A stretch of 64,000 nucleotides of DNA, taken from positions 1 through 64,000 of the forward strand of contig JADBKP010000006.1 of the NCBI GenBank assembly GCA_014896315.1, given 5' to 3'. The translations under genes and the position numbers were made by a program. Shown here piece after piece: positions 4,285 through 43,633 of the stretch; position 1 is the stretch's first letter; every line of letters starts with the position of its first letter. The notes under the pieces were generated by a model. It was not told the origin of the DNA. It did not search any database and was given only the letters and a program-made list of their open reading frames with translations. The stretch comes from Limnochordales bacterium (GTDB lineage Bacteria > Bacillota > Limnochordia > Limnochordales > DUMU01).

Positions 4285-4372
4285 TAGTGCCGTCCCCGAA
4301 TTGCAAGGTTCGTTGTAGGAGGAAAGAGGAATTCTGAACTGCCGCGCGAATTGTCACAGCAATACCCAACAG

Positions 4373-5123
4373 TTGCTGGCAAGGGTGAGCGCGGTGCTTT
4401 GGTTGGAAGAGGTGCCTCGAGAGATCAGGAAGACGTTGGAGAAGGCGGCTCGGCGCGCTCGAGACGGGGTCGCGCGGACCAGGGCTCGGGTGATCGTCTC
4501 CATGCTTCGATTTCAGAACATACCGCGGGCGGCACGCGAAGCTGGGGTTAGCGAAAGCTATGCTCGTAGAGTGGTACGAGACTTCCGGGAGAGGAAGTTG
4601 GAGGTCCTTCCTCCTAAGCACGGCGGGGGTAGACCTCGGGCGGTGTCTGAAGATCAGGCAAAGGCCTTGGCCGACCTGGTACGTACACCTCCCACGGTAC
4701 TGAACCTGCCCTGGACTCAATGGTCGCTGAGCAAGATCCACCTCTATGCCACGAAAGCGGGAATCATCCCGAAGATCTCGCTTGAAACCCTCCGGACCAC
4801 TCTGATCCGGAACGAGATCACCTATCAGCGAACCAAGACCTGGAAGATGTCGAATGATCCCCGGTTCCAGGAGAAGTTCGCCCGGGCGAGGAGAAGAGTT
4901 CCTGGACTTCCTGCAACGTCTGCGTTCTTGTTACCCAAGCTGGCAGCGGATCTATGCGGTCCTGGATAACTTCTCGCCCCATCTGCGTCAGGACGTCCAG
5001 GAGTGGGCTGCTGCCAATCATCGTGACCTGCAACGAGCCATCCGTAGGTACTTGCACTGGCGTAATGCCGATCCTAAGGATCCCAGGATCCTCAAGATCC
5101 AGAAAAGGGTCAAGGTAGCGTAG
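4373..5123 (+). pseudogene. IS630 transposase remnant with two internal deletions (221 bp frameshifting, 108 bp in-frame relative to copy 2)
   Basis: Alignment by eye: copy 2 bases 41440-41660 and 41795-41902 are missing; this removes CVDELGPLELRPY and NASWMNRIECHFAPL but keeps YAVLDNFSPHLRQ. Confidence 0.9.
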
Positions 5124-5150
5124 ACCTCGGCGGCGAATTATATCGCCGGG

Positions 5151-5579
5151 GTGAGGTGGATGCACGCCAAGATTGGTCCTTACGAAGGCGAGCGCTTGCA
5201 AAGGCTGCTGCGCCAGGGGAGCAACCCGGTGACCGTTCGTCGTGCCGAAATCCTCCTTGAGTCCGGACTGGGAGCCAGGGTGGAGGATTTGGCCAAGCGG
5301 TACCACATCCCCGAATCGTACCTCAAGGATCTGATCAGTGAATTCAACATGCGCGGCATGGCAGCAGTAACCGCAGGGGTACGGAAGAAGCGGACGGCAA
5401 TGGTTCCGGAGGAGATCTCGATCCTCATTGAACTCATCGAGATGCCTCCGGAGGCTGTTGGGCTGCGGGAGAAACGATGGACAGCCTCCCTGCTTCGAGA
5501 GACGGCGCTGGCGCGGCGTTGGGTGGACGTCGCCGACCCTGAAGTCATCGAAAAGCTTCTGGCCCAGCATTCGCATTGA
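5151..5579 (+). CDS. IS630-associated standalone paired-HTH (homeodomain-like) protein, ORF2, copy 1
   Basis: RRAEILLESGLGARVEDLAKRYHIPESYLKDLISEF + PPEAVGLREKRWTASLLRETALARRWVDVADPEVIEKLL; identical 142-aa ORF in copy 2; lies inside the TIRs. Confidence 0.75.
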   Translation: MRWMHAKIGPYEGERLQRLLRQGSNPVTVRRAEILLESGLGARVEDLAKRYHIPESYLKDLISEFNMRGMAAVTAGVRKKRTAMVPEEISILIELIEMPPEAVGLREKRWTASLLRETALARRWVDVADPEVIEKLLAQHSH

Positions 5580-5914
5580 GCATCCACCCTCACGTCCCGT
5601 GGCGTCCAGAATTGTCTGACATCGCGCGTGTCAATCCGGGAACGGCACTAGTCCCGACCAAGTGAGAAGAGCGTTGGAAGAGAGGAGACTTCCCACGGGG
5701 AATCCGAGCATCAGTGGCAGCGGAAAGATGGAAGACGGCAGCATTGGCAGGCAGCGAGGGGGTCCCATCCGGGGGACGTATGGGTGCAGCCTGTTCCCGG
5801 TGCTCGAGGGCCAACTTCACAGTCGGGAGACAACACGCGCGTCATGTACCATCTGACATCCTCACCGGTCCACCTTCGCACCTTCGGGCCGCGTCACAGC
5901 CGTACCAAACGACA

Positions 5915-39169: not shown

Positions 39170-40840
39170 GTGGACAGTACATACGTGTTGGGTATCGACT
39201 TCGGCACAGACTCCGTAAGGGCTGTTGTCGTCGACGCAGCTACGGGCAAGGAGGAGTCAAGCGCCGTCGCCTATTATAGGCGCTGGGCGCAAGGACTGTA
39301 CTGCAATCCGGCCGCCGCACAGTTTCGGCAGCACCCGCTCGACTACGTGGAAGGGCTCGAGGAGTGTGTCAAAGGCGCGCTGGCGAAGCTGCCGCCTGGG
39401 GTGGCGGACCGGATTGAGGGCATCGGCATAGATACAACCGGGTCGACTCCCTGCGCCATTGACGAACGGGGGGTCCCTCTTGCCTTGCACGAGGAGTTTG
39501 CGGATAACCCGAACGCCATGTTCATCCTGTGGAAGGACCACACGGCGGTGAAAGAGGCAGAAGAGATCAACAGAACGGCTCGAACCTGGGGAGGTACGGA
39601 TTACACCAGGTATGTAGGTGGCGTCTACTCGGCCGAATGGTTCTGGGCCAAGATACTGCATGTGTTGCGCACGGACGAGAAGGTAAGGAGAGCTGCCTTC
39701 TCCTGGATTGAACACTGCGATTGGATTCCCGCTCTGCTCACCGGTGTGAGGAGTTCCCGCGCGATCAAGCGCAGCCGTTGCGCGGCCGGCCATAAGGCGA
39801 TGTGGCACGAAGAGTGGGGCGGGCTGCCGAGCGAGGAGTTCCTCACCAGGGTAGATCCCCTGCTTGCCGGTCTGCGGGACCGGCTCTACGTGGAAACCTA
39901 CACCAGCGATCAAAAAGCGGGCGAGTTGACCGAGGAGTGGGCCGAGCGCCTGGGGCTTCGGCCGGGTATTGCCGTTGCCGTGGGTGCTTTTGATGCGCAT
40001 ATGGGAGCTGTAGGCGGGGGGATTTCCGCAGGAACCCTGCTCAAGATAATGGGAACTTCCACCTGCGACGTGATGGTTGCCCCGCGAGAGCTGGTCGGCG
40101 ACCGACCTGTAAGAGGAATCTGCGGACAGGTCGACGGCTCGGTTATCCCGGGAATGATAGGGCTGGAAGCAGGCCAATCAGCTTTCGGCGATGTCTACGC
40201 CTGGTTCAAGGACGTGCTTGCCTGGTCTCTTACGGAGTTTGCCCAGGAGGCGGGTGAGGAGGAGGCTTCGCGGGTTCGCGACTTCATCGACCACCGGCTC
40301 CTGCCGCGCCTTACTGAGGAGGCCGCCCGGCTTTCTATTGAAGAGACCGGGTTGCTCGCGCTGGATTGGCTGAACGGGCGACGTACGCCTTTTGCCGACC
40401 AGACGTTGAAAGGGGCAATCGTAGGCCTGACCCTCGGAACTACCGCCCCCAAGATATTCCGGGCGCTGGTTGAGGCGACTGCGTTTGGCGCGAAAGCGAT
40501 TGTGGACCGGTTCCAGGCCGAAGGCCTCAAGATCAACCAGGTCGTGGCTGAGGGCGGAGTGGCTAAGAAAAACCGTCTGGTCATGCAGATTACGGCAGAC
40601 GTGTTGAATATGCCCGTGAAGGTGGTCCGTTCCGAGCAGGCTTGCGCCCTCGGTGCCGCCATGTTTGCTGCCGTTGCGGCGGGCATTTACGGTTCGGTGC
40701 CGGAAGCCCAGACCCACATGTCCGCCGGCTATAGTGATGTGTATTATCCCAATCCCGAGAATGCTGCCAGGTACCAGAAACTGTATGAACGGTATTTGGC
40801 GGTGGGAAGCGCGCTGGAGGATCACCTGCGCGCTCTCTAG
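39170..40840 (+). CDS. araB: L-ribulokinase; stop codon lies at the IS630 copy 2 boundary
   Basis: VLGIDFGTDSVRAVVVDAATGKEESSAVAYYRRW ... TLLKIMGTSTCDVM ... GIDTTGSTPCAIDERG; TAG stop = target TA + first IS base. Confidence 0.93.
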   Translation: MDSTYVLGIDFGTDSVRAVVVDAATGKEESSAVAYYRRWAQGLYCNPAAAQFRQHPLDYVEGLEECVKGALAKLPPGVADRIEGIGIDTTGSTPCAIDERGVPLALHEEFADNPNAMFILWKDHTAVKEAEEINRTARTWGGTDYTRYVGGVYSAEWFWAKILHVLRTDEKVRRAAFSWIEHCDWIPALLTGVRSSRAIKRSRCAAGHKAMWHEEWGGLPSEEFLTRVDPLLAGLRDRLYVETYTSDQKAGELTEEWAERLGLRPGIAVAVGAFDAHMGAVGGGISAGTLLKIMGTSTCDVMVAPRELVGDRPVRGICGQVDGSVIPGMIGLEAGQSAFGDVYAWFKDVLAWSLTEFAQEAGEEEASRVRDFIDHRLLPRLTEEAARLSIEETGLLALDWLNGRRTPFADQTLKGAIVGLTLGTTAPKIFRALVEATAFGAKAIVDRFQAEGLKINQVVAEGGVAKKNRLVMQITADVLNMPVKVVRSEQACALGAAMFAAVAAGIYGSVPEAQTHMSAGYSDVYYPNPENAARYQKLYERYLAVGSALEDHLRAL

Positions 40841-40925
40841 TGCCGCCCCCGAATTGCAAGGTTCGTTGTAGGAGGAAGGAGGAATTCTGAACTACCGCGC
40901 GAATTGTCACAGCAATACCCAACGG

Positions 40926-42005
40926 TTGCTGACAAGGGTGAGCGCGGTGCTTTGGTTGGAAGAGGTGCCTCGACAGACCAGAAAGACGTTGGAGAAGGTG
41001 GCTCGTCACGCTCGGGACGGGGTCGCGCGGACCAGGGCTCGTCTGATCGTCTCCATGCTTCGATTTCAGAACATACCACGGGCGGCACGCGAAGCTGGGG
41101 TTAGTGAAAGCTATGCTCGTAGAGTGATACGAGACTTCCGGGAGCGGAAGTTGGAGGCCCTTCCTCCTAAGCACGGCGGGGGTAGACCTCGTGCGGTCTC
41201 CGAAGATCAGGCAAAGGCCCTGGCCGACCTGGTACGTACACCTCCCACGGTACTGAACCTGCCCTGGAGTCAATGGTCGCTGAGCAAGATTCACCTCTAT
41301 GCAACGAAAGCGGGAATCATCCCGAAGATCTCGCTTGAAACCCTCCGGACCACTCTGATCCGGAACGAGATCACCTATCAGCGAACCAAGACCTGGAAGA
41401 TGTCGAATGATCCCCGGTTCCAGGAGAAGTTCGCCCGGGTGCAAGCGCTCTACAAGCAGTGTCCCGAGGACGGGGTGGTGGTTTGCGTGGACGAATTGGG
41501 TCCGTTGGAGCTGCGCCCCTATGCGGGCCGGAGTTGGGCACCCCAGAAACAGCCTCACCGATTGCCGGCCACCTTCCATCGACCCTACGGGACACGGCAT
41601 TTCTTGGCGTGGTATGACGTGCATTCTGACTATCTGGGAGGCTGGTTCTATCGCCGTAAGCGAGGAGAAGAATTCCTGGACTTCCTGCAACGTCTACGTC
41701 TTTGTTACCCAAGCCGGCAGCGGATCTATGCGGTCCTGGATAACTTCTCGCCCCATCTGCGTCAGGACGTCCAGGAGTGGGCTGCTGCCAATCACGTGGA
41801 ACGGGTCTTCATTGCCACCAACGCTTCCTGGATGAATCGGATCGAATGCCACTTTGCACCCTTGCGAAAGTTCGCTCTGGAAGGCTCGTTCCCGAGAACG
41901 CATCGTGACCTGCAACGAGCCATCCGTAGGTACTTGCACTGGCGTAATGCCGATCCTAAGGATCCCAGGATCCTCAAGATCCAGAAAAGGGTCAAGGTAG
42001 CGTAG
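40926..42005 (+). CDS. IS630-family DDE transposase
   Basis: N-terminal HTH (IPRAAREAGVSESYARRVIRDF), VVCVDELGPLELRPYAGRSWAP, YAVLDNFSPHLRQDV, NASWMNRIECHFAPLRK, 359 aa. Confidence 0.95.
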   Translation: MLTRVSAVLWLEEVPRQTRKTLEKVARHARDGVARTRARLIVSMLRFQNIPRAAREAGVSESYARRVIRDFRERKLEALPPKHGGGRPRAVSEDQAKALADLVRTPPTVLNLPWSQWSLSKIHLYATKAGIIPKISLETLRTTLIRNEITYQRTKTWKMSNDPRFQEKFARVQALYKQCPEDGVVVCVDELGPLELRPYAGRSWAPQKQPHRLPATFHRPYGTRHFLAWYDVHSDYLGGWFYRRKRGEEFLDFLQRLRLCYPSRQRIYAVLDNFSPHLRQDVQEWAAANHVERVFIATNASWMNRIECHFAPLRKFALEGSFPRTHRDLQRAIRRYLHWRNADPKDPRILKIQKRVKVA

Positions 42006-42012
42006 ACCTCGG

Positions 42013-42030
42013 CGGCGAATTATATCGCCG
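42013..42030. repeat. Hairpin/inverted repeat between IS630 ORF1 and ORF2
   Basis: CGGCGA-attata-TCGCCG; same in copy 1. Confidence 0.6.
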
Positions 42031-42032
42031 GG

Positions 42033-42461
42033 GTGAGGTGGATGCACGCCAAGATTGGTCCTTACGAAGGCGAGCGCTTGCAAAGGCTGCTGCGCCAGGG
42101 GAGCAACCCGGTGACCGTTCGTCGTGCCGAAATCCTCCTTGAGTCCGGACTGGGAGCCAGGGTGGAGGATTTGGCCAAGCGGTACCACATCCCCGAATCG
42201 TACCTCAAGGATCTGATCAGTGAATTCAACATGCGCGGCATGGCAGCAGTAACCGCAGGGGTACGGAAGAAGCGGACGGCAATGGTTCCGGAGGAGATCT
42301 CGATCCTCATTGAACTCATCGAGATGCCTCCGGAGGCTGTTGGGCTGCGGGAGAAACGATGGACAGCCTCCCTGCTTCGAGAGACGGCGCTGGCGCGGCG
42401 TTGGGTGGACGTCGCCGACCCTGAAGTCATCGAAAAGCTTCTGGCCCAGCATTCGCATTGA
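42033..42461 (+). CDS. IS630-associated standalone paired-HTH protein, ORF2, copy 2
   Basis: 142 aa, identical to 5151-5579. Confidence 0.75.
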   Translation: MRWMHAKIGPYEGERLQRLLRQGSNPVTVRRAEILLESGLGARVEDLAKRYHIPESYLKDLISEFNMRGMAAVTAGVRKKRTAMVPEEISILIELIEMPPEAVGLREKRWTASLLRETALARRWVDVADPEVIEKLLAQHSH

Positions 42462-42532
42462 GCATCCACCCTCACGTCCCGCGGCTTCCAGAATTGTCTG
42501 ACATCGCGCGTGTCAATCCGGGAACGGCACTA

Positions 42533-43633
42533 GATATACCGGAAAGTGGCAACGGCATCCCCGATTTGCTGGACGAGGCCCGGGTGGGTTTGGAGTGGCT
42601 GCTGAAGATGCAGCGAACTGACGGCGCCGTCTACCACAAAGTGGGACCGGACCGTTGGCCGGGGATGATTCTGCCCGAACAGGACCGGGCCCGCCGTTAC
42701 GTATACGGGGCAACAAGCCAGGACACAGCCAAAGCGGCAGCAGTCTGGGCGATGGGGGCACGCATTTTCCGGCCCTTCGACGAGGGTTTTGCCGACCGGT
42801 TGCTCAAGGCGGCCACCCGTGCCTGGCAGTTCTTGCGGGAGCATCCCGAAACCGTGGATGAGGCGCGCCCGGGTGACGACACCGGTTCGGGGGGCTACGG
42901 AGATTCTGCTGATGCGGACGACCGTTTCTGGGCGGCCGCCGAGCTTTACGTGACCACCGGTGATCCGGACCTGCGGCGGTTTGTTACCATCCTATCCCGA
43001 ACCAGCGCTGCGAGCGTAAGAGAGATAGGCTGGACTAATGCCTCTACCATAGGCATCATCGACCTTATCATCTCTCGGGGTGCGGGCGTTCTTGCCGAAA
43101 CGGGCACCGGCTACGATGCAGATGCCGAAGTTAGGGAGGAGCTACGCCGGCGTCTTCTGGAGAAAGCTGATGAACTAGTCCGCAAGGCGGATGCTAACCC
43201 GTACGGACTGCTTCTGGGCACGGCCGACTTTGCCTGGGGGTCGAACCGAGCTGCCCTCGCCCGGGCCATGTTGCTTCTCGTGGCCGACTACCTCGACCCG
43301 GCTCCCCTCCCTTCTCCTCGTCTGGAGATAGCTCTTCGCCAGCTGGACTGGGTTCTCGGTGCCAACCCACTCGGGAAGTCTTTTGTCACTGGTGTTGGTG
43401 CCAACCCGGTTCTCCACCCGCACCACCGGCTCTCGGAGGCACTGAAGAGGGGGGTGCCCGGGTTGCTTGTAGGCGGCCCGAACAGCAGTGCCGAAGATAA
43501 GGTAGCCCCGGCGGGACTGGGGCCGAAGAGCTATGTGGACGTGGCGTCGGCCTATTCCGTCAATGAACCGGCAATTGACTATAATGCGCCGTTGGTCTTC
43601 GTGGTGGGGTACCTGCTGGCCGCCGCGAGATAA
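42533..43633 (+). pseudogene. C-terminal part of a GH9 glycosidase, truncated exactly at the IS630 right end
   Basis: DIPESGNGIPDLLDEARVGLEWLLKMQRTDGAVYHKV ... VLGANPLGKSFVTGVG ... YSVNEPAIDYNAPLVF; expected upstream DAGD-containing half absent. Confidence 0.85.

Follow-up and report, generated by a model that had tools for sequence, protein, structure and literature searches.

Copies of an IS630-type insertion sequence in the window (the whole 64,000-nucleotide stretch that was analysed) carry a second gene, ORF2, behind the transposase gene, and ORF2 was shown to be a genuine gene under purifying selection. Judged from its sequence, ORF2 consists solely of a paired helix-turn-helix (HTH) module like that of IS630-type transposases, and it is a real element-encoded gene whose product is predicted to bind DNA. 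The same two-gene layout occurred in a distant bacterium, and the additional protein probably regulates or aids transposition. Our main reading, to which we give a probability of about one half, is that ORF2, the second gene in a lineage of two-gene IS630 elements, is a co-translated regulator of transposition. Jumping genes of the IS630 type normally carry a transposase only and, to our knowledge, characterised IS630/Tc1-mariner elements need one protein. Features of the two copies (positions, strand, description):

40840-42530, + strand: IS630-type element copy 2, 1691 bp, with TA at 40838-40839 and 42531-42532, from comparison of copies and ends
40840-40855, + strand: left terminal inverted repeat of copy 2, GTGCCGCCCCCGAATT, matching the inverted right end
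40895-40907, + strand: left-end motif CCGCGCGAATTGT in the transposase leader, from a shared-word shuffle test
40926-42005, + strand: IS630 transposase (DD34E) with its own paired HTH, alternative start GTG 40947, from Pfam and NCBIfam
42006-42034, + strand: predicted intergenic RNA hairpin; part of the presumed ORF2 ribosome-binding site lies in the 3' arm (z = -3.4)
42042-42461, + strand: ORF2, encoding a standalone paired-HTH protein of 139 aa (start ATG 42042) or 142 aa (start GTG 42033)
42499-42515, + strand: right-end dyad TGACA-TCGCGCG-TGTCA, a candidate site for protein binding, from sequence, in both copies
42515-42530, - strand: right terminal inverted repeat of copy 2, GTGCCGTTCCCGGATT as read on the - strand
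4287-5648, + strand: IS630-type element copy 1, 1362 bp, intact at both ends, with TA flanks
4373-5123, + strand: copy 1 transposase, ruined by two internal deletions and a frameshift
5160-5579, + strand: copy 1 ORF2, identical to that of copy 2

The transposase of copy 2 was intact, with 359 aa, Pfam matches to DDE_3 and to HTH_28, HTH_29 and HTH_32, and a score of 168.9 bits against the NCBIfam model transpos_IS630 (cut-off 100); the catalytic residues were D189, D272 and E307, in DD34E spacing. The transposase has an HTH region of its own, as originally predicted, so ORF2 is an additional module. Both window copies terminated in GTGCCG...CGGCAC between TA dinucleotides. TA-flanked ends of the form GTGCC...GGCAC were shared by these two, a copy on contig 14 of the source genome, the copies in the congener G400 (MAG AS04akNAM_94) and the element of G409, a genome of another family and order, the TA target being read from the flanks. 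By its transposase, ends and target, the element is classed as a member of the IS630 family. The family is defined by a single transposase gene, in one frame or as two halves; here, and likewise in G409, we found a complete transposase and a separate ORF2, so that the element breaks the one-transposase-gene rule and represents a variant within IS630.

The positions of the genes between TA-flanked matching ends confirmed that ORF2 lies inside the inverted repeats of both copies, after the transposase and a hairpin. It had also been claimed that the transposase of copy 1 is destroyed while its ORF2 is intact and identical, and this held: two deletions put the transposase out of frame and left ORF2 unchanged. 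The two copies were identical over the right-hand ~580 bp including ORF2 (most of 5019-5608 versus 41901-42490), whereas the left parts differed by about 4-5%. This contrast points to recent sequence exchange between the copies and reads as a sign of gene conversion or recombination. The identity of the two ORF2s thus reflects recent exchange and is by itself no evidence of selection, which other comparisons show. A third copy in the source genome (contig 14, positions 1447-2082 of locus L019) was a miniature that retained both ends and comprised the first ~520 and last ~120 bp, and a fragment interrupted by another insertion was found on contig 2. In the right end of the window element, TGACA and TGTCA form a perfect dyad around TCGCGCG, which was not seen in the right end of G409.

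The open frame of ORF2 spans 151 aa. The length of 142 aa in the original prediction corresponds to a start at GTG 42033; ATG 42042, giving 139 aa, is the more likely start, because the congener has GTG in place of this codon and GTG is likewise the first codon of the G409 homologue at that position. The single change at residue 4 between the window and G400, ATG to GTG, is consistent with a start codon. Pfam gave weak matches only. Residues 30-140 aligned to positions 1-108 of 299 of the NCBIfam IS630 model NF033545 (E 1.2e-5), which is its N-terminal part only, and the score was under the full-model cut-off, as expected for a partial domain. A profile of ORF2 spanned the whole N-terminal domain of IS630 transposases and stopped at the linker to the DDE domain (E 6e-22, G050), bearing out the view of ORF2 as the DNA-binding part of a transposase that has no DDE domain.

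An AlphaFold2 model of ORF2, built from a four-row alignment, had a mean pLDDT of 81 and two HTH lobes (residues 7-71 and 83-137) joined by a loose linker (72-82). The top PDB match in the structure search was the Pax5 paired domain (probability 0.98, E 0.05, not significant), followed by the Pax6 paired domain and then TnsB, MuA and Tc3 (E 0.8 for Tc3), none with a significant E-value. The two lobes and the leading match, at weak E-values, are in keeping with the paired-domain architecture proposed at the outset. Searching the PDB by sequence with ORF2 gave nothing useful. ORF2 has no GRP-type AT-hook-like linker motif, reading GVRKKRT in the window and RKRSVTF in G409 versus GGGRP in transposases; its helices 1-3 were more conserved than its recognition helices, and its identity to the HTH of its own transposase was 19-23%.

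Between the window and the congener, ORF2 showed 16.5 silent and 6.5 replacement differences (dS 0.174, dN 0.021), a dN/dS of 0.12 (Fisher p 4e-6). Between the two copies in G409 the ratio was 0.14 for ORF2 and 0.16 for the transposase. Phylogenetic analysis placed the ORF2s in one clade (99/99) and the HTH domains of their transposases in another (100/99), which indicates that ORF2 is a long-standing second module rather than one part of a split transposase. The separate single clade, together with presence in both lineages, implies that ORF2 joined the element once, before the lineages split, and was then kept. A recent duplication of the element's own HTH was ruled out as its origin by the 19-23% identity and the separate clade. 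The exact source among IS630 N-termini lies among open forks and long branches of the tree; ORF2 may descend from an N-terminus captured from a different IS630 element, which would agree with the main reading.

When 73 genomes from the class were searched with the transposase, two intact copies turned up in G409, 51% identical to that of the window, each directly followed by an ORF2 homologue (41% identical) with its start at the equivalent position. The G409 element was 1684 bp long with ends GTGCTCCTGCC...GGTAGGAGCAC, TA flanks and the same gene order as in the window. No free-standing ORF2 was found in the 73 class genomes or in 399 genomes drawn from the phylum: every homologue that formed a separate gene sat within an IS630 element of this group, which upholds the proposed linkage, and the other inspected matches were transposase N-termini. 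Plasmid matches to ORF2 were likewise N-termini of IS630 transposases, and a search of viral contigs and phages returned nothing.

Sampled relatives outside the two-gene group were compact single-gene elements in which the transposase stop adjoined or fell in the right end. Relatives on actinobacterial plasmids were 37-46% identical and, where ends could be placed, 1.19-1.37 kb long, their transposase genes stopping 8-26 bp short of the right end. The G050 element, whose DDE part was 53% identical, had HTH and DDE in two overlapping frames and ended in the right inverted repeat immediately after the DDE frame. Compared with such single-gene relatives, ORF2 represents about 490 bp added between the transposase and the right end.

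The hairpin CGGCGA-ATTATA-TCGCCG lies just past the transposase stop in both copies (42013-42030 in copy 2, 5131-5148 in copy 1). The corresponding hairpin in G400 had z -2.3, and G409 had a hairpin at the same position formed from unrelated sequence (z -3.2), with GGGAGTGAG in its 3' arm; a longer window segment around the hairpin folded less distinctively (z -1.2). In G409 the ORF2 start overlapped the transposase stop by 11 nt. The hairpin over the ORF2 ribosome-binding site and this stop/start overlap suggest, in two lineages, translational coupling to the transposase. At the left end, CGCGCGAAT started 56-57 bp from the element tip in the window, G409 and G408, and such a shared word arose in 0 of 5000 shuffles. 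The motif was not found in the single-gene relatives examined. The pattern of TAGTGC plus motif occurred in 5 of the 73 class genomes, namely four carriers of the element and one non-carrier, apparently by chance. A promoter scan inside the element found none on the + strand.

In the regulatory mechanism that we propose, ORF2 would be translated by coupling from the same mRNA as the transposase: the presumed ribosome-binding site of ORF2 lies in the hairpin, which ribosomes reaching the end of the transposase gene would unfold. The protein would bind element DNA, perhaps CGCGCGAAT in the transposase leader, and when bound would lower transposase expression and/or compete for the ends, like InsA in IS1. 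Intact ORF2 beside a dead transposase, which fits the expectation for a repressor acting in trans, was found in two genomes (copy 1 of the window and the C32 copy of G400, where the transposase was broken and ORF2 open), although such persistence may be due to chance, given the gene sizes. The hairpins in the window, the congener and G409, the left-end motif at constant position and the precedent of InsA also count for regulation. InsA shares the DNA-binding domain of its transposase and represses IS1 about 600-1000-fold (PMC12428005). Both it and ORF2 (by prediction) are small element-encoded DNA-binding proteins, and a repressor role is proposed for ORF2; however, InsA corresponds to the N-terminal portion of its transposase's own reading frame (PMC12428005), whereas ORF2 has a gene to itself and its HTH has diverged. 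With 19-23% identity between ORF2 and its own transposase HTH, shared recognition of the end sequence cannot be assumed, and the missing GRP linker and less conserved recognition helices could point to protein-protein contact. Against regulation we also counted that the motif occurs in G408, where the contig ends inside the transposase and the ORF2 region lies beyond the sequence, and that ORF2-bearing elements were found in three genomes and two families only.

A possible but less probable reading is that ORF2 is an obligate or stimulatory partner, a second protein that binds the ends or subterminal DNA and assembles the transposition complex, as the Myb-like ORF1 does in PIF/Harbinger. The long-term retention of ORF2 with an intact transposase in G409 under equal constraint, the conservation of helices 1-3 rather than the recognition helices, as would suit a protein-contact surface, and the fixed distance of the subterminal motif from the end all agree with it. 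PIF/Harbinger provides a precedent for two element-encoded proteins, one catalytic and one a separate DNA-binding protein (as predicted for ORF2), but it is eukaryotic, its domain is unrelated, and the Harbinger transposase has no obvious DNA-binding domain of its own (PMC2836001), unlike the window transposase with its complete paired HTH. Moreover, ISY100, a characterised IS630 member, codes for a single protein, the sole one required (PMC2170065), and related single-gene elements exist without ORF2. ISY100 and other IS630/Tc1-mariner elements resemble the window element in TA target, short matching ends and a DD34E transposase with N-terminal paired HTH; the window element differs by the standalone paired-HTH gene behind the transposase. 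Two points ranked regulation above partnership: the transposase comes with a DNA-binding domain of its own, and intact ORF2 accompanies dead transposases in two genomes. We propose only tentatively a two-protein lineage in which a complete transposase and a coupled paired-HTH protein with its own subterminal site act together, the latter being needed for transposition or setting its rate. That ORF2 serves the element otherwise, for example through control of host genes close to the insertion site or by blocking rival IS630 elements, appears improbable: its low identity to the transposase HTH means that its DNA target may differ, but among the genomes searched it was always inside the element and never a free host gene, and its apparent translational coupling with the transposase suggests that it acts in transposition.

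It is very improbable that ORF2 represents the N-terminal half of a transposase that is split or frameshifted, or the decayed remains of a neighbouring insertion sequence. Split HTH and DDE frames do occur in the family, as in G050 and in ISHsp2, whose ORF1 and ORF2 are halves of one transposase joined by a frameshift (PMC3606827), and ORF2 of the window lies in the transposase frame after the TAG. ISHsp2 and the window element are alike in having an open frame with the HTH part only; in the window, however, ORF2 is additional to a complete transposase, downstream of DDE, conserved and selected in two lineages, which refutes two halves of one transposase and, with the separate ORF2 clade, settles this question of the original prediction. 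An 8-bp duplication in G400 alters the frame relation of the two genes, and in G409 they overlap, so that fusion by readthrough or by frameshift is not a conserved feature; readthrough across the TAG was ruled out on these grounds.

A search of open-access papers returned none on an IS630 element with an extra DNA-binding gene, which is weak evidence of novelty. If a free DNA-binding module has indeed been kept, it would be a natural case of control of transposition in trans by a detached transposase domain. The two-gene element would offer a simple system for testing repressor against partner models, and the lineage would hint at how paired-domain regulators can arise from transposases.

Copy 2 lies directly upstream of a GH9 glycosidase gene (region 42531-43633) that misses ~85 positions at the start of the Pfam model, so the insertion was probably accompanied by loss of the gene start. 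To the left of copy 2, the terminal TAG of a carbohydrate kinase gene was created at the insertion point. The G050 element (L024, contig 26) was inserted in a CRISPR-like repeat array, with the repeat TTTCAATCCCCTATCCATCGGGTCATCTACTGCAAC on either side.
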